From Camellia lanceoleosa (taxonomy: Eukaryota; Streptophyta; Magnoliopsida; Ericales; Theaceae), in contig CM045762.1 in the NCBI GenBank assembly GCA_025200525.1, forward strand, positions 86,184,717 to 86,248,716: a stretch of DNA of 64,000 nucleotides, given 5' to 3'. The notes under the pieces were generated by a model, which saw only the letters and a list, made by a program, of their open reading frames with translations, searched no databases and was not told where the DNA came from. The translations under genes were made by a program, and so were the position numbers. Positions 1,261 through 42,842 of this stretch are shown here, in pieces (the first letter of the stretch is position 1; each line of letters starts with the position of its first letter).

Positions 1261-3401
1261 TGCTTTTTTTGGGGCTGCCTTGCTTCTTTCTTTACACTTC
1301 ATGTTCAAATTATGCATGCATTGCATATCTATAGGCCATTCCATGCGCCAAATTTCATGTTTCGGGATTGATTCCATGCCTCGGGTGTTGTTTCGCCATG
1401 TTTCGGGGCTGTTTTGCATCTCATTTTGCCTCTGAAAATTGCATGTTAGTATTCCATAATCCATGCTTTGCCATGTCATGTTAGAGTGGCATTCGTGCCT
1501 TAGGTTCGGTCCTCGGTTTGCGTGCACAGGTGCACACATTTCGAGTGTCTCATTTCCATCTTATGGCCTCTCATGTGAGTGTGGCTGAGGTCCACTCATG
1601 TTAGTGTAAGTCCATATTGCATTGTGTATGCCATTTCATTCCATAGCATTGTGTATGCTAGGTTGTATATTAGTGCATTGTGTATGCCATCTCATCTCGT
1701 GCATCGTGTATGCCATTTCGTAGCATTTTGCATGTTAGGTTGTATCTTAGTTGCATTTCATGCATGTCATGCATATTGCATTGTGTTCGGGACAGGAGTT
1801 AGCCCGGGCACGAGAAACGAGGTACGTTCTGTACTCTGAGTGACGGAACGTGTCTCAATTCCCCAGTCACCGACACTCCGGATCATCTATGAGGGAGTTA
1901 GGTCTTGTTGTGTTTTCATATGCATTCATTCTATATCGAGTTGTGCAATTCGGCTCCTCGGCCATCATGCATCGAGATGCGTGATTGGTGGCATGAGGAT
2001 CGAGACATGCATACATTTGTGAAATACATTGCTATGCCTCTTTCCTGCTCTCTGTTGCAGCAAAATCAAGAATCAGCAGTCTTTCGAGGCTTGGCACGCT
2101 TTCCAAGAACAATTGCAAAACAGAGGCTAATTGGGGCATCCCAATGGATTTTCATAAAGCGACCTAAACATACATCATTCATCAGAATCAAGGCAGTCCC
2201 TGGCTTGCATGCCAGTTTATTATTTTCTTAGTTAATTTGTAAATTAATTAGGAATTTGTACATATTTGGACTGTATTATTTGGACTGTACTATTCTTTTA
2301 TTCGGGACTGTATATTTATTCGGACCCTCTGCGCGAGGGCATAATTGTAATAAGTGTGCGTGAGTGTGATGTATGTCTTCCAACCCCACATATTTCTTCC
2401 CTTTTATTTACTGGCTTATGATGGTTAGATTAGGGCATGTTTCAATTAGCATACAGTATGATAGCATGTTTGCATTCATTCATCTGTCTTGCATGCACCG
2501 GGCTCGGCGCATCATACTAACTGCATTTGTATTTCAATTCCAAGTTGAATACATGTTCGCTGTAGCATTCCATATGCCATGTTTAGAATAGCCGAGCCTG
2601 CTATAGTTTGCGTCTTTGCATGTGTTGCATTAGGCAATTCTATGTATCTAGGATCATGCATGGATTTCTAATGAGCTTTTGTTTTGGCTTGGAGTACTCG
2701 GTGAGTTTTTATGCTTTAGCATCCTTGCATGCGTGTGAGTGACTGCCATGATAGCATGCTTACCATGAGGCTAACTTATGTGATATACACCTTGGATGCT
2801 TGTGGTGGAGGTTGGGTTATTTGGATTGGAACAATTCATCAAATGTTTATTTTAAGCTCACTAGACGATTGGCAAAATCATGCTTTCTAAGCCCAGAGGG
2901 TGGCAAAATCCGCATTTTAAGCCTACTTGCGGTAGCAAACCATTTTCACAAACAAACATGAAGTGTTTTGTTCCAATTCGAACGACTCGATCTATACTTA
3001 TATCTTTGTCATCACATAGTAACCTAGGCTAGTAACCGAAATAAGTACAGACAATGTTTTATAAAATTGATATCTTGGTTAGAAGAGGTCTTTGACGGGC
3101 GGCGAGGTGCTCACGAAGTGACCTTCCCCAATCGTACCCAAGTTCCCGAGCCAAGGCAATTTTGGTGATGACGGACACGTGGCCTTAGGCAAACGAGTCA
3201 GGGTTTCCTAAATTTCCCAAAATAAAATATTTAGGTGGCGACTCTGTATCTGGCAAAGCAGTCCATGTTTGGCACTTCTTTTCTAAAAATCTGTTTTCTC
3301 AAAACGATTTGCCGGATTTGGACTCTTTGGTTCAAGATTAAGAACCGTGACAACAAAATCGAGTCCTGAACTGTAGCGAGGTCCCCCGCGGACGTGTTAC
3401 A

Positions 3402-4129: not shown

Positions 4130-5050
4130 CTTGGACCAACTCTTCGAAATAGGCCTTTAGGGCGTAACATTTAGCAGCTGTGTGCCCATGGTCTTTATGA
4201 TAGTCGCATTTCAGGTCTCTCCGTTTCATATCAAGGGACCCTATCATCTTAGTCGGCCATTTGAAGGAGGCTAGATGCTTTACTTTTGGGAGAATTTTGC
4301 TGATTGGCTTTGTCAGTTCTATATATCTCTTATCTAACCGCCTAGAGTGCCTGTTTTCTACCTAGTATTATTCGTTTTGTAGGCGCGTATCTCGGCGATT
4401 CGCCCTTAATTGGCCTCTTGGCTCGGGGCTCCTGGGAGGGGTTTTGTTTGGTAGTGCAATAGTAAGTGGTTGTACCAGTATAGGCGTTGCCTTTTCTTCA
4501 GCTTGTAGTCTGGCTTTGACTCACAATGTATCGTTTCCAATTTGCAGTATTCTTCTACCTTCTTCATTAAGGCCCAGACTGTCTTGGGAGGCTTTTGAGT
4601 TAGTGAACTTCTAATAAAGCTATCGGGATGCAGTCCCATCTTGAAGGCTGTGATTGCCATAGAATCGTTGCAATCATCATCCACTAGGTTAAAATATTCC
4701 CAATAGCGCTCCGAATATTCACGCAAGGTTTCGTTGGTCCTGATTTTCATTGCCCACAGTGAGTCTGCTTGTTTTGGCTGAGTTTCATTGGTTATGAACC
4801 TGGCCCTTAAGGATCTTTGGAGTTGATGAAAACTTTCAATTGAAGTCAGCTTAAGCTTGTGGTACCACCTGATGACGAGTGGCCCCAGATTGTTGGAGAA
4901 TATCCAGCACATAAGTGCCTCGTCATCTGCATGCAACATCATTGCTTGTTTGTAGTGACGAACATGATCCATGGGGTCCGACTTTCCATGATAAAGAGTA
5001 AACGACGGAGCTTTAAATTTCTTGGGCAAGGCAGCCTTGGCTATACATCG
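4130..5050 (-). pseudogene. Ty3 gag, C-terminal part (capsid and zinc-knuckle region)
   Basis: This is the larger part of a gag split by a solo LTR. From 5050 down, the capsid domain reads LPKKFKAPSFTLYHGKSDP and continues through DHVRHY, WYHKL, a REYSERYWEYFN box and FKMGL, which is the layout of the plant retrotransposon gag family. A C-x-x-H-K-D-H-G-H-T-x-x-x-C zinc-knuckle-like motif lies near 4165-4215. There is a stop at 4406 in the main frame, and the downstream part continues only in other frames. The reading frame joins in frame with the N-terminal part across the inserted LTR, so the LTR arrived after this gag existed. Confidence 0.85.
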
Positions 5051-7593
5051 TGTCACGACCCAAACTCACCCCTATAGGTCTAGCGTCGTAACCGACCAGT
5101 AATCCTTAGATTACCAAAGGCCTCTTAACAAAATAACATATAATTAGGGGTTGCGAAAGCAAATATATAAACATACATAGTCCATTGAGCTGTGTTGACA
5201 TACATGGGACAGAAATTTGAAACTTTATATAAAATATACATATATGATGTCATATTACATCGGGCTTATGGCAACATGCAAATACAACCAAAAAGGTACT
5301 TCACCCAAAGTATAGATAGACAAAACAAAAAACAAAATAAATAAATAAATAAATATCTTCCCCTAGATTCACAACTTGACTTATCAAAAGGGAACATCCC
5401 CGGGAGCCATGGTGGCTGACAGACTCCAAATTCACCAAGCAACAGTTTAGGCCTGGTCACGTGCTTGCTCACCTACATACATAATGTAAATAGCGAACGA
5501 GAGTCCAGTGAATAATAACAGAGTAAAGGGTTTAAATGAATTCCCATAGCAGATTCAGAAAACATATTCGTATTCATATTTTTGTTCAAATCATACACAG
5601 AGATCAGAGTTTATGCTTAATCATACGTGGTACATCCATTAGCACTAACAGAACATATACAGAACAGATGCAGAACATATGGTGATTATGAGTAACCAGT
5701 TCCATAAAGGAATCTCCAGATCCAGGTAACAGATAACAGATATGCTGAATCCCATGATGGAGACTCCAGTACAAGTAACAGATTGCAGACATATTAAGTT
5801 CCATAATAGAACCTTCGATACCGGGTAACAGCTAACACATATCACATGATGCTAAGGATACCACGAATACATTGTCAAAAATTCGACAATCATTCATTGT
5901 ACAAAATATAGCATTTTAGAAAACAGATCTTATTTTATCATACATAAAATAAATAAAGTCAAACATAGCTTTACTAAGTTATTACTCACAGATGGCTCCG
6001 GATGCAGACAAACAGAGCAGACTAATCAAATGGCTTACGGCGCGTGACTTACACAAACATAACAGATACACAAATTTGAACACACACTCGAATAGTACTT
6101 AACTTATTGTGTTCATTCTTAGTGTGATTCTAAATCTTATCTTCATTATTATGCCTTAATCATGGCCTAGGAATGTCTAGGATGCGATGAGGATACCAAA
6201 ATGCACGTTGAAACACTTAGTCAATTATGCTAGAAAATAGGGGCCTCACTCGAGCGTAACTTCCTTTGCTCAAGCGGACATGCAAAAATGTGAGTGGTCG
6301 CTCGAGCGCACCTTCATTTGCTCGAGCGGTCTGTAAACTTTGAAAAAGTACTGGTTGCGGGATTTTTCTGCTCGATGCTTGCTCAACGCTCGCTCAAGTG
6401 TGAGACTAAGATCTTCGCTCAAGCGTAACTCTTGTCGCTCGAGCGGTCTGCAAAACATGTGAACTTCTGGAAGCATGCATTTTACGCTCGAGCCAACTCT
6501 TGGTCGCTTGAGCGGAAGTGCAAAAACAAAGGTGGTTGCTCGAGCGCAAGATCTGTTGCTTGAATGGAGAGATCGAATTCTGGAATTTTCAGATTCACCT
6601 CCAAGCTTTCAAACTCAAATTAAATACTTCAAAACTCATCCTTTTGGGCCAAAAACTTGAGAAAACATATGTGAACTTGGAAAACATTGGGAATTCTAAA
6701 TCATTTCTCAAAATCAAGGCCCAAAGGCTTGCCAATTGTGCAAAACCAAACTTGAATAATATGTACACATAACATGCATGTGTTGGTATGAACTCAAATC
6801 TTGCAAAACATGTACAATGAAGTGTCAAGGGGGTAAAACCACAATAAGCTCCCATAATTGAACCACAAAAGGTCCTTGCATGTGAGGATTTGGTGAAAAC
6901 AACACTTAAAATCCATGAATTATGCATACATGTAAGGTATGAGTTAAATTCCTTCATTTCTAGCTTTAATTCTCATGTTAACCACTTACACCTCTTCGTT
7001 TCATGCATTACACTCTAATTTCCTTTGATTTCACGTGTAAATGTGCTTGAGATTGCAAAATGTGAGGTGAATCCTTACCTAAGGTTGAAGTTAAGTGTCA
7101 AACTAGCTCAAAAATTCCATGTTGTCTTCAACTCTTATCAATTCTTTCCTTCCTCTTCTTTGACTTCAACTATTTCCTTCTCTCCCCCTCTCTTACATGT
7201 AAGAGCTCAAAATGGTGGAGAAAAGATGAGTCTAAGTAGTGTCTAGGCCTTATATAGGCTCAATTAATAAAACATAATTAACTTGAGTGGAAGATAACTA
7301 AATGGGATCATTTTATTCGAATTAATCTGTTTCGATTCGAATTTGAATTCAATCTACTATAAAATTCTAAAAATTCTAACTAACACATATATCAAGTCAA
7401 TTCCGTGATCTTATGCCGATAAGGTCTTCAATTCGCAGAACAAAATAGAAACACAAACAGATATTCCTACTATAGACAAATATAACACAAATAATTCATT
7501 GCATATGTAATTTAACTCAGGATTCCATCTTAATTACTTATTAGGCATACTTAATCATGGATTAAAGGCTAATCGTAGGTCAAGGTTGTTACA
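5051..7593. mobile_element. Solo LTR (2.5 kb) inserted in the Ty3 gag
   Basis: It begins TGTCACGACC at 5051 and ends GTTGTTACA at 7593, the canonical TG...CA ends. It is flanked by CATCG (5046-5050) and CGTCG (7594-7598), a 5-bp target-site duplication with one change. The gag frame resumes exactly across it. No internal domain, PBS or second LTR is present, so unequal LTR recombination is the simplest origin. A relative of the same family lies at 21604-23880. The ORFs inside it match nothing I recognise. Confidence 0.8.
6246..6570. repeat. Cluster of GCTCGAGC palindromic boxes inside the solo LTR
   Basis: About ten copies of an 8-10-bp palindrome close to CGCTCGAGCG, some decayed to GCTCAAGC or GCTTGAGC, alternate with spacers containing 'AACTTC' or 'ACTCTTGGTCG'. 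The same cluster at the equivalent position marks the related LTR near 22740-22960. This could be a regulatory array of the LTR family. Confidence 0.75.
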
Positions 7594-12047: not shown

Positions 12048-12420
12048 GTGAGACCCGTGATAGACCCCATAACCCTGATAATATTCTCCAGTCCAATTGG
12101 ATTTGAGAGAATCCTCTCTTTTATAACTACTAGTGGTGTGTGCTCAATGGATGAATATGTTGTTAAATTTGAAAATTAATTTTTTATTTGAATATGAATT
12201 TAAATTTAATGAGTTTCAAGAGGCATGCCAGTTACATGAGGGCATTTTGGGTGATTTAAGATCCAAATTCCTGAGGCAAATTTGTTGTGCCTTTTTTTAA
12301 TTTTCAAATTAGGAAACACACGAGCACAAAAATTTAGTCCCCAACACCCACTACTACGCTACAATATAGATTAAAAACGGTAGAGAATAAAAAATGAAAA
12401 GAATAAAAAAATTATATGGG
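12048..12420. other. Spacer before the inverted duplication, no gene
   Basis: AT-rich sequence without a recognisable gene or repeat structure. It meets the left arm of the NCL duplication at 12421. Confidence 0.5.
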
Positions 12421-13748
12421 ATGGGCTTGCTAGCTGGGTCTACAGTCATGCTCCTAACTGTAATATGGGGAACTTGTGTTATTGTCGGCAAGTGTGACCT
12501 GCACGATTCAATTGCAATAGATGGAAAAGATTCAAAGAAATTTAGCTTAACTGGTATGTCCATGGACTTTCTTACTCATTTTTTCTTTACCTATGCACGA
12601 AAATCATGTATTGTTTTAAGAAGAACTAGTATTTCTGACTTCGAATTGCTTCTCTCTCTCTCTCTCTTGGAAGCCAAAAAAACATGGGTGATGTTGGCAC
12701 GCCTAAAGGGAAGTTATGGCACATGAATACATAAATTATGATTTTTTTGATATCATCATCATACTTCTTGTTTTCCACTTATCCAAAAAATAATAAATTT
12801 TTGTGCTTCTAGCTGTTTGCTTTTTATTTTGATTTTATTTAGGTGACAGTTTCCAGTTGGATGCCATAATCATAGTACTTTCTATTGTGATAAGAGTATC
12901 ACTGATAATCAAATGCATGTTTAACTTCGTACGCCTCACTGACTTGTTTATTTTCTTGGATTGTTGCCATCCCAGTTAGAAAATATTTTAGAATGTTTGA
13001 CCAATGATTATTGATGGATTACATAATCCGCATAAGTTACTCTCATCTTTGCAGGTTCTGGTGTCACTGCTGAAATCTGGACTAGCTATGCTGCAGGGAT
13101 CATGGCTATATCTGTAATACCATTTCTTGTTGTCCAGATACCACAAATTATGAATTCAACTTCAGGAAGACACTTGGCAGTCTTGATTGCACTTATTATC
13201 TCTGTCTGTATGCTGATTTCATATTGTCTTTATCAGGTAAAATATATTTTCTAACATTGTTTAAAATTTAGAGGATCTAAGTACGTAATTTGGGTAGGGT
13301 GATGGATACATATTTCATACCTTTACCCTTGTCATAACGCGAATCCAACAAGGAGAATTGAAGAGTCACATGTAACGCTGACTTCCATACTTCATCGAAG
13401 AAAATGTAATGTTGGGTAATGGTAATGCCTTGTTTTTTGCCTCCCCCTTGTCTTGGTTGCGAGCAAAACCTCTTGTTAATTAAGTCATCAGAAAGTGTAT
13501 AGATTACATTTGGTGTTTTAATTTCCTGCTTTCCTCTTCTGAAAGAGTGTAAACCTTGTTATCAGAGGCCATATTATCTCACCTGCCACCTGAACTTTAA
13601 TCGCCAAGGTATGGTGAACTCTTATTTGTCGTGTTGAATAGTGGGTCCCATCCCTTCTTGTAGTTAGCTGGTTAAATTTCTTCTCTGTTCATTGAATTGT
13701 TACGGTTTTCCCTATCTGTGCTTAACTTTCCTTCTCTATATATAGGTT
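12421..13748 (+). repeat. Inverted repeat, left arm (1.33 kb)
   Basis: This arm is the near-identical reverse complement of 14118-15457, including exons and introns of the NCL gene fragment. Homology starts at ATGGGCTTGCTAGC and stops at ATATATAGGTTT. Differences are scattered substitutions, a longer GA run in the right arm, and a short rearranged stretch opposite 13050-13080. The 369-bp region between the arms would be the loop of a hairpin. Confidence 0.95.
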
Positions 13749-14117
13749 TTTCAGCCATGGATCCAGAGGAGAAGACTTGCTTATAAGCAAGTAATATCAG
13801 GATTTCTGAAATATCTAAAGATGCGTGCACTGGGAAGGTTCATCAAGGACAATGGCGAGCTTAATACTGAAATTGTAGAAAAGTTGGTTTTCTTTTATAC
13901 TTCCCACTGAAGATTCTGATTGCAGACTCACAAATTTTAGACTTGGACTCGCATATTTTCTAACTCTTAAATGGATTTTTGGTAGGCTATTTCGCACAAT
14001 TGACGGGGATAAGGATGGATTTATTTCAGAACCTGAATTGAAAGCTTTGATCGTAGGGATGCGGCTTGATGAGATTAACTTGATGAGATTAACTTGAATG
14101 AGGATGATGCTGTGAAG
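12421..14117 (+). pseudogene. NCL: NCL-type Na+/Ca2+ exchanger, partial gene copy (plus arm)
   Basis: NCL proteins are plant membrane cation exchangers with EF-hands. Four exons are visible. Exon A ends at 12553 (GLLAGSTVMLLT...VIWGTCVIVGKCDLHDS). Exon B is 13055-13236 (EIWTSYAAGI, VIPFLVVQIPQ, NSTSGRHLAVL, a membrane segment). Exon C runs from 13746 to about 13886 (VFQPWIQRRRLAY...ALGRF). The last exon starts at 13986 and has a canonical EF-hand loop, DGDKDGFISEPE. AG and GT splice borders are intact for A, B and the start of C. A 14-bp tandem duplication (14065-14078 and 14079-14092) shifts the frame after the EF-hand. The N-terminal exchanger half and the C-terminus are missing, so it is a fragment. 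Confidence 0.85.
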
Positions 14118-15192
14118 AAACCTATATATAGAGAAGGAAAGTTAAGCACAAATAGGGAAAACCGTAACAATTCAATGAACATGGAAGAAATTTAACCAGC
14201 TAACTACAAGAAGGGATGGAACCCACTATTCAACACGACAAATAAGAGTTCACCATACCTTGGCGATTAAAGTTCAGGTGGCAGGTGAGATAATATGGCC
14301 TCTGATAACAAGGTTTACACTCTTTCAGAAGAGGAAAGCAGGGAAATTAAAACACCAAATGTAATCTATACACTTTCTGATGACTTAATTAACAAGAGGT
14401 TTTGCTCGCAACCAAGACAAGGGGGAGGCAAAAAACAAGGCATTACCATTACCCAACATTACATTTTCTTGATGAAGTATGGAAGTCAGCGTTACATGTG
14501 ACTCTTCAATTCTCCTTGTTGGATTCGCGTTATGACAACGGTAAAGGTATGAAATATGTATCCATCACCCTACCCAAATTACGTACTTAGATCCTCTAAA
14601 TTTTAAACAATGTTAGAAAATATATTTTACCTGATAAAGACAATATGAAATCAGCATACAGACAGAGATAATAAGTGCAATCAAGACTACCAAGTGTCTT
14701 CCTGAAGTTGAATTCATAATTTGTGGTATCTGGACAACAAGAAATGGTATTACAGATATAGCCATGATCCCTGCAGCATAGCTAGTCCAGATTTCGAAGG
14801 ACACGTAACACGCAAAGATGAGAGTAACTTATGCGGATTATGTAATCCATCAATAATCATTGGTCAAACATTCTAAAATATTTTCTAACTGGGATGGCAA
14901 CAATCCAAGAAAATAAACAAGTCAGTGAGGCGTACGAAGTTAAACATGCATTTGATTATCAGTGATACTCTTATCACAATAGAAAGTACTATGATTATGG
15001 CATCCAACTGGAAACTGTCACCTAAATAAAATCAAAATAAAAAGCAAACAGCTAGAAGCACAAAAATTTATTATTTTTTGGATAAGTGGAAAACAAGAAG
15101 TATGATGATGATATCAAAAAAATCATAGTTTATGTATTCATGTGCCATAACTTCCCGTTAGGCGTGCCAACATCACCCATGTTTTTTTGGCT

Positions 15193-15229
<37 letters not shown>

Positions 15230-15457
15230 CAATTCGAAGTCAGAAATACTAGTTCTTCTTAAAACAATACATGATTTTCGTGCATAGGTAAAGAAAAAAT
15301 GAGTAAGAAAGTCCATGGACATACCAGTTAAGCTAAATTTCTTTGAATCTTTTCCATCTATTGCAATTGAATCGTGCAGGTCACACTTGCCGACAATAAC
15401 ACAAGTTCCCCATATTATAGTTAGGAGCATGACTGTAGACCCAGCTAGCAAGCCCAT
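14118..15457 (-). repeat. Inverted repeat, right arm (1.34 kb)
   Basis: Reverse-complement partner of 12421-13748. The arm ends at the same intron/exon border (AAACCTATATATAG) and, on the outer side, at AAGCCCAT. It contains a (GA)n run at 15197-15227, where the left arm has a shorter CT run. Confidence 0.95.
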
Positions 15458-15470
15458 TCCAACTGAGACT
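14631..15470 (-). pseudogene. NCL: NCL-type exchanger, partial gene copy (minus arm)
   Basis: The minus-strand copy keeps exon A (15470 to 15325, reading VSVGMGLLAGSTVMLL) with a plausible acceptor before it. It therefore reaches slightly further 5' than the plus arm. It also keeps exon B (ending 14631). The exon B acceptor region is altered: where the plus arm has TTTGCAGGTTCTGG, this arm has TTTGCGTGTTACG, which removes the AG and rearranges the next codons. Exon C and the EF-hand exon are absent because the arm stops at the exon C border. It cannot make an exchanger. Confidence 0.8.
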
Positions 15471-16678
15471 CTAGCTAAAGTGGAGTATGAGGATAGCAAA
15501 ATGTGTGCAGTCTTACCCCTATTACCCCTATTTCTAAAGAGATGTTTCCATGAACATGAGAGATCTTAATCACACATTTAGAGAGAGAGAGAGAGAGAAA
15601 TATAAACCAAGGATATGAGAGCCTTCTATGTGCAAGCTAAAAAAAATTATAAAGAAAATAAATAAACTATGCACAAATTCCTTCAAAGAAAGAATTCTAT
15701 AACCAAATAAAACTATAACTTAAAGATTCCAAAGTAATGAACACAGTTAGAATAGTTATGATATAGATCAGGCTGGTAAGCTAGTACCAACTCTGTGTTG
15801 TAGAGATTTAAAGAAACACTGATTATGCAACTTCGAATTCTCTTTCTGATATGGAAATTTATAACAAACTCATGCCTTCAACTTCAGGTCATTTCTTGAT
15901 TTTATGATGTTGAGAGATGCGGACTAGTAATGCAAGTTGAATTCAAATATATAATAATGATATCTAATATATGGAAATGAACAAGAGCCTTCAATTTCAA
16001 TAACAAACCTCAGTGCACACAAGCAAACAAAAGCTAAGGTAACCAGAGTAGAATATGATATATGCACATGAAAACTCACCCTATAATATGATATATTCTC
16101 TTTGGAATCTAATACTAAATAGGGTAACTTTACCTCTTGCTAGCCACATATAGCAGAAATATTCCAAGTAATATGAAAGTAACTTGGCAATATCTTAAAT
16201 GATATGAATAGTAGGCATGGAAGCTCAATAAAATTTTGAAGCTAGGAGGTTGCAAGGCCTGAGACAGAGTAGTGACAAGCAGAGAGGAAGAAAACTTGAA
16301 AGATACGAAAACAATTCTTAAAAATAAAATAAAAAAGTTCTTATGTTGTCTATCCCAACTTACTTCATAACAGAGCACCATTCAACGGATAGAAATTAGA
16401 ACCTAATGACATCACAAACTATATTCAGAATTCAACTTTTTAACAGCACCAGAAGATGCAACACAGAGTTTAGAGGCATGGCCAATTAAGGTTAGACATT
16501 TCCCATGGTCAAAAGTTGGATTTAAAAGTAAACATGGATGGCGCTTCAATTGGTAATCCAAGACTAGCGGGTGTAGGGGCTTTGACTAGAAATAGTGCCG
16601 GTTTTTGGGCGGTGGGATTCATTTAGAAAATTGTGTGGGCTCATGCTTTAACGGCGGGCTATGTGCAGTATGGCAAGG

Positions 16679-16875
16679 TGTAGGAAATTAATGTATAGAT
16701 ATTATTGGTTGATTGATTGATATCCAATGTGTTTACAAGAGCTCTCTTTTATAGAGAGAAATGGGATACAATGGAGCCATAATTAATTGAGCAATAAGAA
16801 CAAAATGGAGCACTAAACTAAATGACTAACTATATGGGGTAGGTGGAGTAGGTGTAGGAATTGTTACATTCAACA
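16679..16875 (-). repeat. 3' LTR of the RAD51-carrying element
   Basis: 197 bp, TGTAGGAAAT...TTCAACA on the plus strand. It is 98% identical to 19973-20169. The polypurine tract (GAGTTTGAGGGGGGC on the minus strand) is directly adjacent at 16876-16890. Confidence 0.95.
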
Positions 16876-16980
16876 GCCCCCCTCAAACTCAAGGGGGTTA
16901 GGAACTAACCAACTTGAGTTTGGAGAGAGTAACAAAACAGGAAAAATAATCTGACAAATAAAAGTAGATAGGAGACACTG

Positions 16981-17365
16981 TATGGTCGTGTCAGACCGTT
17001 GTAGAAGACAGTTTATGGGGTCATGTCGGACCGTTGTAGAATATAGTTTATGGGGTCATATCGGACCGATGTAGAAAACAGTTTATGGGGTCATGTCGGA
17101 CCGTTGTAGAAAACAGTTTACGGGGTCATGTTGGACCGTTATAGAAAACAGTTTACTAGGTCATGTCGGACCGTGGTAGAAAACAGTTTACTGGGTCATG
17201 TCGGACCGTTGTAGAAAACAGTTTATTGGGTCATGTCGGACCGTTGTAGAAGATAGTTTATGGGGTCATATCGGACCGATGTAGAAAACAGTTTATGGGG
17301 TCATGTCGGACCGTGGTAGAAAACAGTTTACAGGGTCATGTCGGACCGTTGTAGAAAACAGTTTA
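16981..17365. repeat. 35-bp minisatellite, 11 units
   Basis: The unit is TGGGGTCATGTCGGACC plus GTTGTAGAAAACAGTTTA, exactly 35 bp, repeated 11 times without a gap. Units 3 and 9 share the variants CATATCGGACCGATG, which suggests duplication of a six-unit block. Confidence 0.95.
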
Positions 17366-17645
17366 CTGGGTCATGTCGGACCGTTGTAGAAGAGAACCGA
17401 AATCAATGTCAGAACAGTTTACCAAGTCTTGTCGGACCCATATAGGAGCAAACCGGAATCAATATCGGAACAGTTTACAGAGTCTTGTCGGACCCATATA
17501 GAAGCTAACCGGAATCAAAGTCGGGACAGTTTACAGAGTCTTGTCGGACCCATATAGAAGCTAACCGGAATCAAAGTCGGGACAGTTTACAGAGTCTTGT
17601 CGGACCCATATAGAAGCTAACCGGAATCAAAGTCGGGACAGTTTA
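17366..17645. repeat. 56-bp higher-order minisatellite, 5 units
   Basis: Each unit is the 35-bp unit enlarged to 56 bp by 21 extra bases (AACCGGAATCAAAGTCGG-type) before CAGTTTA. Units 3 to 5 are almost identical. The first 56-bp unit still begins like the 35-bp family (CTGGGTCATG) and the later ones with AGTCTTGTCGGACCCATAT, so the array records its own stepwise growth. Confidence 0.95.
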
Positions 17646-17660
17646 CCGAGTCTTGTCGGA

Positions 17661-17775
17661 CCCTCAAAAGGCGTGCCCAATCTCATCAAAAGGCGTGCCA
17701 TCAAAAGGCGTGCCATCAAAAGACGTGTCCGACAGCCATCAAAAGTCGAGCCATCAAAAGGCGCGCCAATTTGTC
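17661..17775. repeat. 14-bp GCCATCAAAAGGCG minisatellite
   Basis: About six copies of CATCAAAAGGCGTGC and variants follow straight on from the 56-bp array. They end at the GC-rich block before a TATA-like TATTTATA at 17818-17825. Confidence 0.85.
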
Positions 17776-17817
17776 GTCTGACGTTGAGAGGCGCGTGATA
17801 CGCGTGTCTGCCTTGCC

Positions 17818-17825
17818 TATTTATA
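17818..17825 (+). promoter_or_regulatory. TATA-like box inside the element
   Basis: TATTTATA occurs just after the GC-rich minisatellite and about 110 bp before an ATG at 17934 with a Ser-rich frame. It could drive plus-strand transcription, antisense to the element. Motif evidence only. Confidence 0.3.
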
Positions 17826-17933
17826 CCAAGGCGAGGCTGCCGCTTATGCAGAACAAAACATCTGCTGAAAAAAACCTCTGAAAACCTCTTCATTTTGCTG
17901 AGAGAGATACTCTGTAACACTTCTGCCCAGAAA

Positions 17934-18483
17934 ATGGCTTCTTCTTCCTGTTCCGCTACCCAGAACATAGCCTCTTCTTCCCGGGGTCTGCTCACTCTCT
18001 TTCCGACCTCAATGAGTGCACAAGAGATAACCGGCGGTTGCCTGGAACCGCAACCAATCGCCTGGACCAAGTCCCCCGGTTTCGCCGTTGAACTATCGAT
18101 GGTGGCGGTTGAGCGGATAATGGCCGCTCAATCGATATTGAGGCCAATTATTATACATTAAGGTCATGTGTTGAGACCATGATCGGTCAACAACCTGTCG
18201 CACCGGCCAGAGTAGAACAACCGAGGTGCGCAGTAAAGTTTAATCGCTCGCTTCCAGCGATGTATACGGATGCGGCGAGATATGTGTGCTGAAGGCAGAA
18301 AACAAGGAACTGACGCGGAAGGCCACCGTGATGCTCAGATTTGGAGGTCCGCCATATGTGACAGTTGAGGAGCAACGGGAAGTGAACGTGCTCGGCGGTG
18401 TGGGAAACACGGAGGCAGCACCGACAAGGGACGCCCAAGACAAAGGCAAGAAGAAGAGAACAGCTGAAGAGGCGAAGAAGTGA
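17934..18483 (+). pseudogene. Unidentified frames (possible captured gene 3' part)
   Basis: A frame from 17934 starts MASSSCSATQNIASSS and ends at 18161. A second starts at 18180 (MIGQQPVAPARVEQP, then AMYTDAARYVC) and meets a TGA at about 18289. A third overlapping frame (LKAENKELTRK ... DKGKKKRTAEEAKK) runs to 18483 as though continuing the second after a 1-2-base shift. A poly(T) tract follows at about 18534-18553. I do not recognise the protein. The basic Lys-rich C-terminus resembles a nuclear or nucleic-acid-binding tail, but no function is claimed. Confidence 0.3.
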
Positions 18484-18553
18484 GGCCAGTTGTTTGTGGT
18501 GGTTATGGGATGTGGTTGATGATTGTTTGGTTGTTTTTTTTTTTTTTTTTTTT

Positions 18554-19138
18554 GTGTAAAATTGTGATCGGGGTTGATCCCCGAGATGAATAAAATAAGG
18601 TAAGGTTTGGTGTGCAAATTGATATGGTAGGAATGAGATTTGAAAAAAATAGGTGAATGTTGATAGATTAAACAAAGAGGAAGATATGATGATGGCGGGT
18701 GGCACAAGCTGATCTGATTCACCTCTGCCACCACTCTCGATGCAAACGATGGTTGAAATCATGAACCACGATCTAAATAGCAAGCAATCGCATACCCACT
18801 TCCTCCATTTCCTCTGAGAAAATTTGATTCAGCCAATTGTAGACTAACCCATATAGCAAGATCATGAGAAGAAGCGAACTAACATTCCTCATTGCATAAA
18901 GAACTCCCTGAATCCATTGAACCCATTGAGCTTTGATTCAACAGACTCTCATCAAATCTCAGTGACAGTGGCTCAATTCTTGTCTCCATTAAAGTGGGTG
19001 CGGTGGAGAGAAAAGAGAGAACTTAAATGTGCAGATGAGTACACTTTCAGGTTTGGAGGAAAATATCAAATATCAAATTATCGATTCTTTGCAATTGCAG
19101 ACTTGCCCTACCCTTGCATAAAACTCCACCCTAAATTC
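18554..19138. other. Unassigned interior of the RAD51-carrying element
   Basis: No recognisable gene. A minus-strand TTATTTTATTCATC-like stretch at 18585-18600 and several short open frames are seen. The block may be untranslated sequence of captured transcripts. About 270 bp at 19700-19960 is also unassigned; on the minus strand it reads a Gly/Tyr/Gln-rich frame (GYNAQGQGYAQDGYGGY). Confidence 0.4.
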
Positions 19139-19694
19139 TCACCCAATCATCACTTGTTCTCCTCCAAGAAGCTGTAAGTAGGTACCTCCAGATTGTAGGG
19201 TCTTTGGTCCGTCTGCGGATCCTACCAGAAATGTTATAGTGTGAGCCATGATGTTACTACCAATAGGTTTGATTTGAGGCCCAGCAAAAATGGCAGAACC
19301 ATCCACTTGGGCAACAACTTGATTTGTGATAACAACAGCTACACCAAACTCATCTGCTAATTTCTGAAGACTTCTCAAGAACTTTGCAAGATGCATTTGC
19401 CTGGCTGACAGCTCTCCCCTTCCAGAAAAATCCGTTCTATAAAGAGCAGTAGCACTGTCCACTATCATAAGAGCAAACATGGTTTCCACCATCATTGAAG
19501 CAGCTTCAAGCAAAAGCCTTGATTGATGATCAGTGTTGTATGCTCTAGCATAGGCCACATTCTCCAAAAACATCGTCAACTTGTGCTTCGCTGATTCCTT
19601 TGATTTGCAGAAGGTCTTTCCTTGGAGAGTATGCAACAGATTCAACTGTGCAGAGACCAGCATCTTTAAGCTTCTGGTTTCTTACTTGCTCCAT
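19139..19694 (-). pseudogene. RAD51: Rearranged RAD51 recombinase cDNA fragment
   Basis: RAD51 forms the strand-exchange filament in homologous recombination. On the minus strand, an ATG at 19694 leads into [20 protein letters not shown] and [13 protein letters not shown], the N-terminal helix-hairpin-helix region. It then jumps, in a different frame, to [23 protein letters not shown], the Walker B strand [46 protein letters not shown] and [11 protein letters not shown]. After this the sequence stops matching RAD51 and ends at 19139. Introns are absent throughout, indicating an RNA origin. The Walker A segment between the two blocks is deleted, so no working ATPase can be made. Confidence 0.9.
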
Positions 19695-19960
19695 GGCCGA
19701 TCGATTCGCAAATCTCAAAGAGAGGATCCACCATTGATGAGCAGATGTAAAGAGGGTGAGGGAAAGTAAAGGGTGAGAGAAGTGTACCCACCATAGCCAT
19801 CCTGAGCATAACCTTGCCCCTGTGCATTATAGCCAGAAGCTGGTGGCTAAGGTGGTGAAGAAGAGTGAAGGTATGTGTAGAAAATTCCGACGGGCAGCGA
19901 AGGCAAAGTTACCGGCCGGCTGCCCGCCGGTGAGAAAGAAATACAGGCCTAAATCTTATG

Positions 19961-19972
19961 GCTCTGATACCA
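19961..19972 (-). other. Primer binding site (initiator Met-tRNA)
   Basis: TGGTATCAGAGC on the minus strand lies directly against the LTR end at 19973. This is the standard plant LTR-element primer site for initiator methionine tRNA, and it gives the element's orientation. Confidence 0.95.
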
Positions 19973-20169
19973 TGTAGTAAATTAGTGTATAGATATTATT
20001 GGTTGATTGATTGATATCCAATGTGTTTACAAGAGCTCTCTTTTATAGAGAGAAATGGGATACAACGGAGCCATAATTAATTGAGCAATAAGAACAAAAT
20101 GGAGCACTAAACTAAATGACTAACTATATGGGATAGGTGGAGTAGGTGTAGGAATTGTTACATTCAACA
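19973..20169 (-). repeat. 5' LTR of the RAD51-carrying element
   Basis: 197 bp. It differs from the other LTR at unit positions 6, 13, 94 and 151 only. On the minus strand it begins TGTTGAATGTAACAATTCC. The target duplication CAAGG follows at 20170-20174. Confidence 0.95.
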
Positions 20170-20590
20170 CAAGGTCTACTTTCGGCTTGGCAAAGAGGAT
20201 GTACGGAGATCATCTTGGAGATGGATTGCCAAGATGCAGTGAGTTTGTTGCAAGGTCCAAATTCTATACATCCTAATTTCAATTTGGTGCTACAGATGAG
20301 GGAATTTGTGAAGGAATGGGACTGTAAAATCCAGCATATTTTCCTAGAGAAGCAAAAGAGTGTGCAAATTAGTTAGCACATGAGGCACTACAAGGAGGTA
20401 CTCACCTGCAGACCTTGCTAAGGCTGTCTCAAAGGATGCAGCAAATTCTAGCTTGTGAGATTCTAGATTGGAGATATTTCTGCTAGTTTCTCTTTTTTCT
20501 GTTCTTTTTTTTTCCGGCTTTGGCCACCCCCCCCCCAAAAAAAAAAAACACACACACAAAAAAAAAAAAAAAAGATTTTCCCAGGCCGAA

Positions 20591-21603
20591 GACAGGACAT
20601 TTTCCAAAAAAGGCTAAGAAGCCAAACACTGAAGCCATTGAAATCCCGTATATGATTCAGTAATCTAAACTGATAAAGAATTAACTAAATTGTTACATCT
20701 AGCAACTAATTGGGATGTATTAGAGGGAACTAACAAGACAATTTTCAAAAAATAATAATAATATGACACAAATTTGCGAGAACGTGGCAACAAATAAAAA
20801 ATAAGGAAAATTTCACCTTACCACCATGTGGTTTGGGCCATGTGTGCATAAGGTCCCTCACATTAAAAAATAATCAAGTAAATCCCCATGGTTTCTGGAC
20901 TAAAAAGTACCACTAGCTTACGTTAATGGTACTTGTAAATTGACATTAATAACCTCATCATCTTCATCTACTCAATGAAAGATTCTTTTCCCCCCACTAC
21001 CACCACCATCCACTATGGTTTTTAATACCTTTCGTTATAAATCCCATACTAGGGACAAAACAGCTTTGAGTAATGAAAACCAATAACAAATTTTTGTGAC
21101 CGAAAAGCATAATAATCAATCAATACCACAAAACAAAGTGCAACAAGGCATTTGACAGAATCAATCACAGTTTCTGAAATGGTGCAGTCCAAGAAAAAAT
21201 ATTAACCACAGCTTCTTCAATTGTATGATAATCAACTTGTTAAAAAAAAAAAAAAAAAGGTGAGAAATCAAACATAATTAGCTCCCGAAAACAAATGAAG
21301 AACAAGTAATGAATATCAGTTTGTAAGAAATGGATTACAGATGAGCCAATAAAACAAAGCAATCTGAACATGTTATAGCATTCAAAATAGTGATTTTTTG
21401 TCTGTGCATTGACACAATTTTAAGGTTTAAGGTTATTGCATGGTTGGGATTCATTCCAGGATATCTAAGAAGTACAGAAACAAATGAGGGAAATATAGTG
21501 CTTAAAGTATTGAAAACAAAAAATATTGATTTTGTTTCCCACATCCTTCTTTTCATTCACTTACTTTTTCCATAACTATTTCATTGTCAACTCTATCCTC
21601 TTC
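20591..21603. other. Gene-free part of segmental duplication copy 1
   Basis: No gene. It matches about 40010-41340 almost throughout, with small indels and a poly(A) run at 21241-21258. The shared string GGTTTGGGCCATGTG lies near 20831. Confidence 0.6.
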
Positions 21604-23880
21604 TGTCACGACCTGAACCGCCCCTAGAGGTTTAGGCTGTGACCGGCCAATAATCCCAGATTACCTTCGGCCTCAAAGACAAAACTGATAATAAAGGGGC
21701 ACTGCAGAAGCAATATTAGAATAAAAAAAATGTCCATTGAGTGGTGCATACATGAAAATCATATGAATTTAAACTTTAACTCCTTCATAGATGCGGATAC
21801 AAAAGTACATCATAACCTCTTAACACTTATACAAATTATCCATTCATTTCAAGTTCCAAAACAAAAGAAAATAAACAAACGAAACAAAAGAAAGCATCAT
21901 CATTCACAAGGTTGACACACCTGGCTCCACATGAGACCAAGATCACCCCATCACAGAGGCACTTCCAAAGCGGCTGACAAAAGGGTGAATCCCCGAGGTT
22001 GCTCTATGCTTGACGCTGCATTTGCTTACCTACATATATATATATATATATAGGGTAAGGAAGTGAGCTAAAGCCCAATGAGTAATACTAATATAAAGAG
22101 GTTAAATGAATGATGTCTATCATAGTACAAAATCATATCACATGAGTTCAAAGCAAATCATAACTGAATACTTGTCGTATCAAAGTTCACAAATCATAAT
22201 CATAGGTTGTATATCCATTAGTACACGAAGGGACCACATAGGTCTAACAAAGGGACCACTCAGGTCTACATCAGAGATCTCTGTAACAAAGGGCAATGGT
22301 ATTGTTACCCTCGGACGAGGGCCATATAACGAAGGGCCATGGTATTGGTACCCCCAAGCAAGGGCCACACTAAGGATGCCACAATTACATTTCAAATAAG
22401 ACAATCATTCATTTGTATCAAAATAGCATTTCAAAATAATGATCTTGTGGTAAAACCAAAATGCACTTTAATAACATATCTTTACAAAAGTACTACTCAC
22501 AGTGGGCTAATATTGACGGTAGACCTCGGTTGACTACCTACACCAATCACACAACACAAATACACATTGAAGCACCCGTTCGAAACAAGCAATGTATCTT
22601 AATTCATTTCCCTTACGTATGTTTCTAATTTATTCCATGATTAAAGATGTTTAAATGAGTCTTAAGAATGCCTAAAAGTGCATGAGGATGCAAGTATGCA
22701 CTTAGGAGAGTTAGTCAAAAATTTCTGAAAACAGGGCCTTTGCTTGAGCTCACACTTGGTCGCTTGAGTGGTGTGGCTTGATTCCAAAAGTACTGGTTGC
22801 TCAAAATGTGCGCTCAACAGTCGCTCGAGCCAAGTGCTGAACAAAAGTGAGTTTGCTCGAGCGCACACTTGGTCGCTCAAGCCAACTACCAAACTTTGTA
22901 AAAATACTAGACGCTAGCGTTGTTCGCTTGAGCCATGGTTCCTTCGTTCAAGCAACCTATGCGAATTTCGGGTTTTCCAAATTTGTGTTTGAAGTTCAAA
23001 AACATAGCTTTCATCTTCAAAGCTTGCATGGTTGGTCTCAAAAGCTTAGAAACTCATTACAAAACATGTATTGTTGGAAATTATGAAACCATGATCCCAA
23101 ATTCCTTTTCAATTCTTCAAAACAAAGCTCAAAATATCATGTTCTTGCCATGCATGTGACAAACTCAACTCTTTTCTTTACAAAACGTGTATATATGGAA
23201 TGTTGGGTGCAAAATTCATGAAGAACCTTAAGAAATATCTCATGCATGTATGAATTTGTAGAAAACCAAGTTCAAAGATGAAGAGTTATGCATGCATGTG
23301 TACAATTCACTCAAACTCACTAAACTCTTGATATTTCATGCTCATTTCCTTCAATTACATGCAAATGGTCCTACAAATTGGTGAATTCATCTTCCAGCAT
23401 GGATTAACTTCATGAATTATAGGTAAAGATCATACCTAGAGCTTGAATTGGGCCTTAGTTGAGCTTAAATTCTTCAATCTCCCCTTAATTCTCTTGAATT
23501 CTTCTTCTTCTCTCTCTAAAGTGTTCAGTTCTCTCCCAATCTCTCAAATTTTCAGCTCAAAATTGATGTCAAAATGAAGCCTAAAGTATGATTAACATAT
23601 ACATATATATATATAGGTGGATTAGGCTTGGCTAATTAATTGTGATTAAGACTAATCAATTGGGCTTAATTAAGTCTAGACAAGTATAATTAATTTATTT
23701 TACTTATTTGGATTCAAATCAAATTTTAATTAAACTTACCATATGGTTCTAAATATTCCAACTAACTTATTGAAACAGATAATTCACAAACAAACATATA
23801 AGTATCAAATAGGCACATAATCATGCAAATATGCTCAATAAAATATTATAGAAAAATAATACGAAAGTTGGAACCGCACA
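21604..23880. mobile_element. Solo LTR (2.3 kb), same family as 5051-7593
   Basis: It starts TGTCACGACCTGAACC and ends GAACCGCACA. The flanks TCTTC (21599-21603) and CCTTC (23881-23885) form a 5-bp duplication with one change. The homologous sequence at about 41340 in the other duplication copy is the uninterrupted site. Shared features with 5051-7593 are the CAGATTACC(A)..GGCCTC start block, the GCTCGAGC palindrome cluster at about 22740-22960, a CTTCAACTC-type 3' part and a (TA)n near 22028-22051. There is no internal domain. Confidence 0.8.
22740..22960. repeat. GCTCGAGC palindrome cluster in the second solo LTR
   Basis: Boxes such as GCTTGAGC, GCTCGAGC and GCTCAAGC alternate with the spacer ACACTTGGTC, matching the cluster at 6246-6570 in the related LTR. 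Confidence 0.75.
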
Positions 23881-23922
23881 CCTTCTCCCTTAGAAGTTGG
23901 AAGCAGAGTTCACCTGTCCCAC

Positions 23923-25091
23923 TCAGACACCATTTTCACCTTTCACTAAAACTAGGGTTGCCTTGAAAATATCAACATCAAATGAGTAAGAATTCCCTAC
24001 AATTCCAGTATTTGTCAATTTTTGGGTTGCAGGGTGATAAGAAAGCAACCAGTTCTTATTCGTTGATAATAGAACTTCACCATTCTTTCTAAATCCCAAT
24101 GTCTTGTCCAACACACCTGATAGATTTATACTGAATAGTTTAGTCCAAGATTCCGCATCTCCATATTCTTTCATCACCCATATGCAGCAAGAACACATGC
24201 CAATTTATGCATTACAAAACACGACCAATGATTCTCCAAATAATTTAACGGACAAGCATGATGGGCGTTGATCGGCTAAAGTAGGAGGCGAGAATAATCT
24301 CGAGAATGCTTCAAGACCCATATTGAATGACAATATTAAATTGCGAAAACCATCCACCACATGCAGATCAAATGCAACCCAATGCAGCTCCATTCACAAA
24401 AGCACGAGACCACATAAATTCAACCATACAATACGGAGGAGCGTAGAATCCATGCATCTCCATAACCACTGTACCTTGCGTGAAAAGCTCAACCTTGGGA
24501 GCAAAAGCGAGAAGAATAGGCATTCAAATACACAAGCCTTACCACCTTGTACTCATGAGTTGTGGGGTGAGCACCAAATCCAAGAACAAACATATTGCGG
24601 CCGGTGGCCTACAAGGCATACGGATGGTTACCGATTTTCTAATTGATGGGTTCCATAGAACAATTTGGGAATCATCACCAATGGAACCAAAAATGATCTT
24701 GGAAATAATCACAATAATCATCACATAGACATAGCAATCCATTGCAACTACCAACTATCCTAAAATACCCATTTGGGCTTTTGAATGGGAAAGGTAGTTC
24801 CAAGTAATCAGGAAAATTTTCATCATCAGGGCACAAAAGATAGTGCTCTTTCTTGTCATTATCAATGTAAAGTCTAAGGATAAGCTTGTCACTGTTTCTT
24901 TTCCTGTCTGTAATTGTTTGGTTGATGTGTTTGGTGATGAAACTAGGGCTTGTGATGAGAGAGTACCATGATTTGCAGACAGATGTGAATCGAAGTAGAG
25001 AATCTACAGGTAGTCTTGCAAGAATTTCAATTAATAGTTCATTGGGTATGTACTCTGACATTGTTATCAGAGGAAGAGGATACAGATTCAT
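23923..25091 (-). pseudogene. F-box protein with F-box-associated domain, frameshifted (copy 1)
   Basis: F-box proteins bring substrates to SCF ubiquitin ligases. The frame opens at 25091, with the better family start at 25061 (MSEYIPNELL). The F-box follows: IEILARLPVDSLLRFTSVCK and SWYSLITSPSFI. The F-box-associated region contains GSCNGLLCLCDDY, then IVLWNPSIRK in a shifted frame. The C-terminal parts (NLILSFNMGLEAFS, CLSVKLFGESL, then WVMKEYGDAESWTKLFSI) sit in further separate frames to about 23923. At least three frameshifts or stops break it. It is paralogous to the minus-strand gene at 41310-42700, and the two differ in their breaks. Confidence 0.85.
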
Positions 25092-25211
25092 AGGATTGGT
25101 TTAGAGTTGCAGAGAATCAATAAAACGCCCTAGATTTCGAGAAAGAGAGGAAAGCTGGATTGGGAACTTACAATTGTGATGATCCATAGACACAAGCCCT
25201 TGTTTTGACAG

Positions 25212-35468: not shown

Positions 35469-35638
35469 GAGAGATAGTTATTTTTCAAAGAAAGACATTG
35501 AGTGCCATTATTGCATGAGAAAGGGCATATGACGTGGGGATGTCGAAAGCTCAAGAACAAAGAGAAGAGGCGTGACAAAAGTGTGGATAAGAAACAAGAA
35601 GACACAACGGCTATTACTACCGATGGTGATCTTATGGT
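35251..35638 (+). repeat. 194-bp tandem duplication over the gag zinc knuckle
   Basis: TCGTGATCAAAG begins at 35251 and again at 35445, and the two 194-bp copies stay colinear to about 35638. The second copy has TTGCATGAG for TTGCCATGAG, so the zinc motif loses a base and the frame shifts. Confidence 0.9.
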
Positions 35639-38185
35639 CATTTGTGAAAATGATTGGTTCCATTTTGTGGGCCAAGAAAGCAATTGGGTGATTGATTCTA
35701 GTGCTTCTTTTCATGTGACTTCTCGAGTTGATTTCTTTACTTCTTACACCAAAGGAGATTATGGTTGTGTTCGAATGGGCAATGAAGGTTTGTCCAAGAT
35801 TGTTGGCAAGGGTGAGGTTTGCTTGGAAACAAATTTGGATGGCAAGTTGTTGCTTAAAGATGTGGGGCATGTTCCTGACATTCGCCTTAATTTGATCTCT
35901 ACCAGGAAGCTAGATGATGAAGGCTTCAACAACAAATTTGGTGATGGAAAATAAAAGTTCACAATGGATTCTTTGGTGGTGGCTAAATGTAAAAAGACTC
36001 GTACACTTTATTCGATGCAAGGAAAAATTTGCAAAGTTGTTGTCAATACACTTGAGGATGATACTTCTTCTAAATTGTGGCACAAGCGGCTTGGGTACAT
36101 GAGTGAAAATGGGCTTCACGTTTTGTTCAAGAAAGAGCTTCTACCCAATTTAAAAGGTACGCATATTAAAACTTGTGTTCATTGCTTGGCGAGTAAACAA
36201 CATAGAGTTTTTTTTCATAAAAATGTTATTTCTAGAAAAGAAAATGTTTTGGAATTGATTCATTCGGATGCTTGTGGTCCTTTAAAAGTTAGAACACATA
36301 GTTATGGGATCTGGTCAACAAGGAAGTTATTCGAAGTCGTGATGTTGTGTTTCTTGAAGACCAAACAATTGAAAACTTTGGCAAAGGTGATCAACGGGAG
36401 CCAAAAACTAGTGATCTCATTAACATTGATCCACCTCCTTCCTTTTCGGTGGATGATGAAAATGAGGGAGATATGCAGCCACCTATTGAAGATATGGAGG
36501 ATGATGCTAATCCTAATGAAGTTGAGCCCAAAATTGAGGAAGAGCATCCAACTCTAGAACAACCACCACAACTTGAGTTGAGAAAATCTACAAGGAATTA
36601 GAAACCTTCGAAAAAGTATCCTCCCAATGAATTTGTGCTAATATCCGATTAAAGAGAGCCTGAGAGCTACAAAGAAGCAATTGAGCATGCAAAAAAAAGG
36701 TGATTGGAAAAAAAACCATGGAAGATGAAATGAATTCCTTACTTAAAAACCACACTTATGTTTTGGTGAAGTTGGTTAAGGGGAGGAAAATTCTAAAAAA
36801 TAAATGAGTTTTCAAATTGAAGAATGATGACAACAATCTAAGGTACAAAATATGCCTTGTTGTGAAAGGCTTTGGACAAAAGAAACGTGTTGGCTTTGAT
36901 GAAATTTTCTCACTAGTTGTAAAGATGTCTTCTATTTGGGTTGTACTTGGCATGGCCGCAAGTATAAACCTTGAAGTTAAGCAACTTGATATGAAGACCG
37001 CATTTCTTCATGGAGCAATCGAAAGGTTTTGTGGAAAAAGGGAAAGAGAAATTTGTTTGCAAATTGAAAAAAAGTTGGTATGGCCTCAAGCAAGCATTGT
37101 GGCAATGGTACAAAAAAATTGACTCTTTCATAATGAATAATGGTTTTTCTAAAACCACTTCGGACCATTGTGTGTTTGTGAAAAAAATTTCGCATGACAA
37201 ATTTATTATTCTTTTGCTTTTGTTGATGACTTGTTAATTGTGGGTCAAGATTCTACCATGATTAACAAGTTTTGAGCAAGTCTTTTGCTATGAAAGATTT
37301 GGGACCGACAAAGCAAATACTTAGTATGAAAATTGTCTGTGATTGCAAAAAAGAGCTGTTTTGGTTGTCTCAAGAAAGTTACATTGAGAAAGTTTTTGAG
37401 AGGTTCAACATGGATAAAGCAAAGGTGATTGGTTGTCCACTTGCGGGTCATTTCAAGCTTAGTTTAAATCATTATCCTACAAGTGAGAAAGATAAGGAAG
37501 AGATGCTGAAAATTCCTTAGGCTTCAGTAGTTGGTTCTTTAATGTACGCCATGGTTTGTACAAGGCCGGATATTGCTCACATCATTGGTGTGGCGAGTCG
37601 TTTTCTCTCTAATCCGGGTAAAGAACATTGGGTAGCAGAATGGATTCTAAGGTATCTTCGAGGGACTTCGAAGGTGTGTTTGTGTTTTAGGAATGGTAAG
37701 CCGATGCTTAATGGGTTCACAGATTCCGACATGGCCGGTGATGTTGACTCTTCGAAATCTACTTCAGGGTATTTGATAACTTTTGTAAGGGGAGCTGTGG
37801 CATGGTAATCTAAATTACAAAAACATGTTGCTTTCTCAACTACCGAAACTGAATTTATCGCCATTATAGAAGCTTGTAAGAAAGAGTTATGGTTGAAGAA
37901 ATTTTTGCAAGAGTTGGGTTTGAAGCAAGAAAGATATATGTTTTATTGTGATAGTCAAAGTGCTATTCATTTGAGTAAAAATTTCACTTTCATTCGAGAT
38001 TGAAGCACATTGATATGAGATACCATTGGATTCGTGATGTGTTAGATTCGAAATTGTTATAACTCGAAAAGGTTCACATGAATGATAATATTTTGGATAT
38101 GTTGACTAAGACTTTTGTCGAGGGACAAACATTTAGAGTGTCGAACTTTAGCGGGTATGATTGATGTTTATACCTAAGTCGGTAG
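35502..38185 (+). pseudogene. Copia pol (protease, integrase remnant, RT, RNase H)
   Basis: The protease WVIDSSASFHV motif lies at about 35686, with the catalytic D-S-G changed to D-S-S. The GAG-pre-integrase zinc finger follows (LWHKRLGYMSENGL ... HIKTCVHCLASKQ) and the start of the integrase core (LIHSDACGPLKV). The DDE core is then missing: at about 36310 the sequence jumps to the region before RT. RT motifs are KQLDMKTAFLHG (about 36978), KKSWYGLKQA, a degenerate VDDLLIVG, and RPDIAHIIGVASRFL. RNase H reads GFTDSDMAGD, STTETEFIA and CDSQSAIHL. There are many stops and frameshifts. Confidence 0.9.
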
Positions 38186-42700: not shown

Positions 42701-42842
42701 TGTTTTCAGAGGAAGACGATATAGTAATTTTGGAACAGAGATTATACAATCCCTAGCTTTAGGGTTTGGAGAATGAGAGCAAAGTTGGAGAGTATACTTA
42801 TAGTTGTTATGATCCATACATACAAGCTCTCGTATTGACAAT

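Follow-up and report, generated by a model that had tools for sequence, protein, structure and literature searches.

Host-Gene Capture by Plant LTR Retrotransposons

Long terminal repeat (LTR) retrotransposons that have captured host genes are already known in plants (e.g., Bs1 of maize and GmaRetroS15 of soybean), and LTR gene capture has been described at scale, with 672 genes in rice and 1,343 in sorghum (PMC3726574). Such capture is mostly reported as separate events in many families, whereas the case described here is one of capture and replacement repeated on a single chassis. The window, that is the whole analysed stretch of 64,000 nucleotides from Camellia lanceoleosa (assembly GCA_025200525.1, contig CM045762.1, forward-strand positions 86,184,717 to 86,248,716), contains a complete non-autonomous LTR element of 3,491 bp (16679-20169, minus strand) with a rearranged fragment of RAD51 cDNA. 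This element is very probably a young member of a non-autonomous Camellia LTR family that acts as a cargo vehicle for host-gene cDNA, and comparison of the members suggests that they repeatedly take up copies of host genes and exchange them.

The following comparisons apply to the cited portions of the respective papers. Bs1 carries fragments of three host genes, as exons only (PMC13317346, PMC4717578). Similarly, the RAD51 cargoes of the window copy and of a second copy on C15 lie inside LTRs without the introns of their parent. Unlike Bs1, a single element with three transductions, the Camellia family has many copies, its cargo differs by copy and exchange is evident. Among terminal-repeat retrotransposons in miniature (TRIMs), 30 gene-carrying elements of 1,172-1,449 bp from 7 of 289 subfamilies were reported, including GmaRetroS15 with intronless exon fragments of three genes (PMC4717578). 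The element shares with gene-carrying TRIMs the LTRs with a 5-bp duplication, the absence of gag-pol and the intronless exon fragments, but differs from them in size (relatives of about 3-4 kb), in its long 3' module and in the frequency of cargo, present in 30 of 40 members. Its LTRs are short by the size limit that we presume for TRIMs and its duplication is of the TRIM kind, whereas the element itself is not very small.

In pepper, LTR-driven retroduplication of nucleotide-binding leucine-rich repeat (NLR) genes mostly involved non-autonomous elements with spliced genes (PMC5664825). That study focused on one gene class, with other genes also counted, whereas here many unrelated genes are found on one chassis. 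BARE-2 and Veju TRIM chimeras gained new sequence or LTR parts by template switching (PMC13317346), a gain like the one considered here, whereas exchange of host-gene cargo is not described for them in the cited text. In a literature search, which covered mostly titles and the openings of abstracts, we recognized neither an LTR element carrying RAD51 nor an LTR family with near-universal, exchangeable host cargo.

The RAD51-Carrying Element and Its Parent Gene

The element is delimited by a 5' LTR with TG...CA ends (19973..20169, minus strand) and a 3' LTR (16679..16875, minus strand), both of 197 bp and differing by four mismatches, and by the target-site duplication CAAGG (16674..16678 and 20170..20174). 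The primer binding site (PBS) TGGTATCAGAGCC (19960..19972, minus strand), which we presume to correspond to initiator tRNA-Met, directly abuts the 5' LTR, and the polypurine tract (PPT) GAGTTTGAGGGGGGC (16876..16890, minus strand) directly precedes the 3' LTR. The Pfam scan of the window, from which the left flank was excluded and in which the right flank was included, revealed no gag-pol domain in the element. No Rfam match was obtained over the window, self-comparison detected no second copy of the element inside it, and there was no match in plasmids and none in viral contigs (one exact pattern). The LTR divergence of 0.0206 corresponds to approximately 0.8 million years at 1.3e-8 substitutions per site per year, a rate from the pepper study (PMC5664825, as given in the cited portion) that is possibly too high for a woody plant. 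When the element is excised in silico, a reverse-transcriptase-like RNase H fragment locally regains its open frame. This fragment is itself broken further upstream, and the right flank of the element matches PF13456 (E 3.1e-7).

The RAD51 cargo lies in sense with the element. Its parent is found in the same assembly, with matches split over C2:1200060-1202042 (locus L026). Three pieces of the parent were identified on the minus strand, including (i) the 5' untranslated region with the start of exon 1 (19671..19723; L026:442-494, 88.7% identity); (ii) the helix-hairpin-helix piece (19575..19675; L026:2049-2149, 98.0%), which overlaps the first by five bases; and (iii) the ATPase core (19242..19574; L026:2970-3824 with two introns removed). 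The core matches PF08423 (E 1.3e-52) and corresponds to residues 186-298 of human RAD51 (best human chain, E 1.3e-50). For the helix-hairpin-helix piece, matches were obtained to yeast RAD51 (E 1.8e-10) and to residues 39-78 of human RAD51 (E 1.6e-9), and its score lies below the Pfam HHH_5 cut-off (19.5 vs 27 bits). Walker A, which we take to lie at about residues 127-134 of RAD51, is missing from the cargo, and Walker B, presumably at about 218-222, is inside the retained stretch.

The window copy lacks the parent introns 3076|3337 and 3472|3716 (L026 coordinates) and is joined at their GT/AG sites. The RAD51 copy on C15 (L025), which is bounded by LTRs of its own and by another target duplication, lacks the same two introns as well as a third, 564|2019, a joint called from the alignment rather than base by base. 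The two cargoes are scrambled differently. In the window copy, RAD51 jumps from 494 to 2049 (with the five-base overlap mentioned) and from 2149 to 2970 (no overlap), whereas in the C15 copy the first stretch is retained and followed by 73 inverted bases (2346-2274; overlaps of 3 and 7 bases), after which RAD51 resumes at 3036, so that deletions and the inverted exon piece across both copies show overlaps of 0-7 bases. Since each copy lacks something that the other has, both probably descend from an earlier, fuller RAD51 cargo, as judged from their alignment with the parent. RAD51 cargo was located in these two places only.

The initial annotation had read the locus as a recent LTR element with a rearranged RAD51 cDNA, and this reading is upheld, together with its description of the element ends, of an interior without retroviral genes and of RAD51 as intronless and in sense. 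Neither introns in the related RAD51 copy nor restriction of RAD51 to an assembly join was found. The proposed fusion of the helix-hairpin-helix region to a core without Walker A holds for the DNA, where the two pieces are joined, but not for a protein, as they are in different frames. The predicted mobile family is borne out by the C15 copy with its own LTRs and duplication, although the RAD51 joints of the two copies differ. Finally, RAD51 does not account for the whole interior: there are also a GYNAQGQ-coding bit, a further non-RAD51 piece, a broken antisense open reading frame (ORF) and long tandem repeats.

A Camellia Family with Differing Host Cargo

Searches returned at least 56 match rows for the LTR query (40 of 830 first-look candidates scored) and at least 43 for the leader query (40 of 238 candidates scored). 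We examined 40 members picked by LTR or leader similarity, namely the window copy, 17 full loci (L025, L027-L042) and 22 leader-plus-cargo stretches (L043-L064); L025 was picked also for its RAD51 match and L027-L029 for a second leader-fragment match. L030 and L031 are compound loci. Ten stretches are counted as members on the leader alone, the 3' module being not found within the 1.5 kb fetched (L055, L056, L060-L064) or absent or barely reached within 1.9 kb (L043, L048, L050). LTR pairs are present at all 17 full loci and a 5-bp duplication at 13 of them, in addition to the window copy. LTR-to-LTR matches at the other loci are spaced 2.8-3.8 kb apart, the LTRs measure about 197-290 bp, and those of L034 are 100% identical. 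The members have in common the LTR ends, the PBS, a leader hairpin and the 3' module, and their middles differ. Two local arrangements were also observed. L027 and L028 (C2:92.13 and 92.08 Mb), about 55 kb apart, have the same cargo and the same duplication CCCTT, and are probably one insertion duplicated together with its surroundings, and at L042 (C5:1.712-1.722 Mb) two family members adjoin in opposite orientation.

Host Pfam domains above the cut-off are encoded in 30 of the 40 members and weak ones in three (L048, L052, L063); the remaining seven (L030, L033, L044, L054, L058, L060, L062) have none, including Pfam-negative long frames (e.g., L033 and L054) that were not counted as cargo. 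The 30 positive members were either scanned or are near-identical to a scanned member or gene, the latter applying to L025, L028, L029, L041 and L049. ORFs for scanning were a subset chosen by length and judgement, and among 48 distinct ORFs of the relatives the Pfam scan matched no gag or pol. The cargo families comprise Rad51, HAD hydrolase, zf-UDP, CNOT1, zf-CCCH, MARCHF6_C, Steroid_dh, HPAT, Radical_SAM, importin-beta repeats, protein kinase, PGK, UVB_sens_prot, H_PPase, Myb, Ist1, Aa_trans and Mito_carr (two cargoes each), Lyase_aromatic, pyruvate kinase, calpain, CRT-like, Thiolase_C, aldolase, PP2C, Ribosomal_L7Ae and Acyltransferase. RAD51, found in 2 of the 40 members, is thus one of 29 distinct host-gene fragments and not a special cargo. 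Sense orientation predominates, with 23 of the 29 fragments (p 0.0023; some share a member and are not independent) or, if each distinct cargo is counted a single time, 19 of 24 (p 0.0066). Fused host-gene fragments arise from this family, and those of RAD51 at least are spliced. Unrelated host genes are joined in one open frame in L037 (HPAT and radical SAM, 376 aa) and in L050 (pyruvate kinase and calpain, 435 aa).

Five pairs of members combine similar flanks with middles that do not align, including L046/L053 (flanks 97.5% and 98.6% identical), L051/L053 (99.3% and 96.9%), L032/L051 (96.3% and 97.5%), L050/L052 (93.2% and 93.7%) and L038/L040 (85.4% and 98.2%). The shared flanks are 55-295 bp long per side, and boundaries of the middles at the 17 full loci were placed by hand. 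Near-identical flanks around unrelated cargo indicate that cargo has been exchanged between members.

The window copy itself has a composite origin. In a comparison of 14 loci (L031, L035 and L036 left out), its leader, older chassis piece and the start of its 3' module are 95-100% like L025 and L027-L029. Its U3, which is unalignable to the U3 of those four loci, is 97-99% like L032, L033 and L034, and compared with L040 shows 92.5% identity in the 5' LTR and 100% in the 3' LTR. Judged by these similarities, the window copy combines two subfamilies. Both this recombinant pattern and the exchange of cargo would fit template switching during reverse transcription, a step that we infer.

The leader hairpin, with a GC-rich stem of 12 bp, is located just 3' of the PBS (19887..19930, minus strand). 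At least 11 of the 12 pairs form in 39 of the 40 members, which are related to each other and were compared without a shuffle control. One pair is changed at both positions between subfamilies (A-T vs G-C), most other changes are wobbles, and L044, L056, L061 and L063 have one broken pair each. A role of this hairpin as a packaging signal is a guess.

Proposed Mechanism and Alternative Explanations

We propose that the family consists of fixed parts around a slot that would be filled with host-gene cDNA. Besides the LTRs and the PBS, the fixed parts are a leader of some 100 nt with the hairpin, on one side of the slot, and on the other a 3' module that contains tandem repeats, the PPT and an antisense ORF broken in most copies. 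RNA of the element and cellular mRNAs would be packaged together in particles of an autonomous partner. After copying of the 3' module, the reverse transcriptase may jump onto an mRNA and later return to the leader, so that the old cargo is replaced; such replacement by template switching is suggested by near-identical flanks around unrelated middles. The product would then integrate with the observed 5-bp duplication. In the window copy, RAD51 cDNA would have entered a chassis already carrying other pieces, become scrambled internally and later been combined with the U3 end of the second subfamily. A stronger version, to which we give an even chance, is that of a family dedicated to cargo exchange, which would sample the transcriptome and swap its cassette at a high fraction of transpositions, with hundreds of copies across Camellia. 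Because the boundaries are readable in the sequence, packaging, template switching, sense bias and the limits of the slot are directly testable in this family.

Several observations weigh against the cargo-vehicle interpretation. Six of the 29 fragments are antisense, as is the inverted RAD51 bit of the C15 copy, so that switching between sense RNAs alone is insufficient to explain the cargo. Intron loss was examined in the RAD51 cargo alone, the family size is a lower bound, and no autonomous partner was found in a search that went no further than LTR matches. L034 has no hairpin and yet has identical LTRs, and the antisense ORF, intact in a single copy among 18, is not needed from each copy. 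Finally, over most of the 3' module the window copy resembles both subfamilies equally, the two groups showing no clear difference at element positions of about 1640-3294, and the switch point is therefore not placed.

The best surviving alternative, although unlikely, concerns ancestry and is compatible with a cargo vehicle: the family could be a reduced Retand/Tat-type Ty3 element. In Retand elements, the region that separates pol from the 3' LTR contains antisense ORFs and tandem repeats (PMC11963269, cited portion), and a similar arrangement precedes the 3' LTR here, the tandem repeats being common, though not universal, in Retand. The antisense ORF of the window copy consists of three open pieces split by frame changes (17934..18483, plus strand) that match an intact relative, P0121, of 190 aa with a basic C-terminus. 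Downstream of it lies AATAAA (18589..18594, plus strand), presumably with a role in polyadenylation, and the shared 3' module begins close by. A search with P0121 gave 117 clusters, and every organism-named one was from Camellia. A start-motif search found the antisense ORF undamaged in just 1 of 18 copies, so the idea that it is an intact gene in these elements was rejected. Against Retand ancestry, the Pfam scan detected no TRP28 domain in P0121 or in the ORF pieces of the window, the LTRs of about 197-290 bp are shorter than the 432-1,194 bp in the Retand table rows (PMC11963269), and there is no gag-pol by which to place the element, the scanned members containing no reverse transcriptase. 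Retand elements, as described in the same portion, are mostly large, with gag-pol and TRP28 antisense proteins, none of which were seen here.

In a number of Camellia sinensis gene models (P0168, P0176, P0178, P0183, P0218, P0220, P0221, P0225, P0234, P0237 and P0238), the antisense ORF is combined with other domains or names, which possibly reflects the same cargo habit in tea or merged gene models.

It is improbable that cargo was exchanged between inserted DNA copies by way of their shared flanks, whether through gene conversion or through ectopic recombination. In favour of this, the flanks on both sides are long enough that recombination could occur within them, and the window copy combines two subfamilies. 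However, such exchange supplies no new host cDNA, yet the RAD51 introns are absent; moreover, the 5-bp duplications at full loci surround the whole element, and the cargo shows a sense bias.

Even less probable is a one-off capture, in which a RAD51 cDNA or processed pseudogene landed in an LTR element of an otherwise ordinary family. The presence of RAD51 in just two places speaks for it, whereas the host domains above cut-off in three quarters of the relatives, mostly chosen by LTR or leader similarity, and the absence, by eye, of a poly(A) at the end of the RAD51 piece speak against it.

Least probable of all is a functional regulator derived from the RAD51 fragment (a dominant-negative protein, or an antisense or siRNA source, as the initial annotation had suggested), since, despite a 174-codon ATG frame open over the ATPase core and a gene model (P0001) annotated there, a dominant-negative RAD51 is unlikely because the helix-hairpin-helix and the core are out of frame, an idea weakened further by the absence of Walker A, the different scrambling of the second copy, the position of the annotated second exon of P0001 outside the element and the rarity of RAD51 among the members.

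Further Features of the Element and the Window

Several pieces of the interior remain to be described. An older captured bit, which reads PPASGYNAQGQGYAQDGYGG (19758..19848, minus strand), and an older chassis piece (18650..18919, minus strand; 95-97% identity) are common to L025 and L027-L029, whereas for the non-RAD51 piece (18920..19233, minus strand) the comparison of the 17 full loci gave a single match, in the C15 copy. The tandem repeats comprise 11.7 copies of a 35-bp unit (16984..17391), 5.5 copies of a 56-bp unit (17357..17663) and two short runs of a 15-bp unit (17684..17768).

The gene model LOK49_LG06G01634 (P0001) spans from the RAD51 cargo (19139-19663) to about 16391, in flanking DNA past the 3' LTR, and has the appearance of an annotation artefact, illustrating that captured fragments may also yield false gene models. 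Its interpretation as an independent copy in another species was rejected, as the C-terminal residues of the protein map to about 16391 in the window, i.e. to this locus.

The window segments 15902-25210 and 39135-42840 represent a collinear, diverged duplication (70-82% identity). The latter leaves no space between 39985 and 40008 for the element and the RNase H fragment, which makes it a second empty site. The window also contains an inverted repeat of 1.35 kb (12417-13753 and 14113-15461; 97.4% identity), a disease-resistance-type gene with NB-ARC, winged-helix and LRR regions, split over two frames (53012-56049, minus strand) and remains of other retroelements, including Retrotrans_gag (4409-5065, minus strand) and a Pol_BBD polyprotein piece (35505-35954, plus strand).

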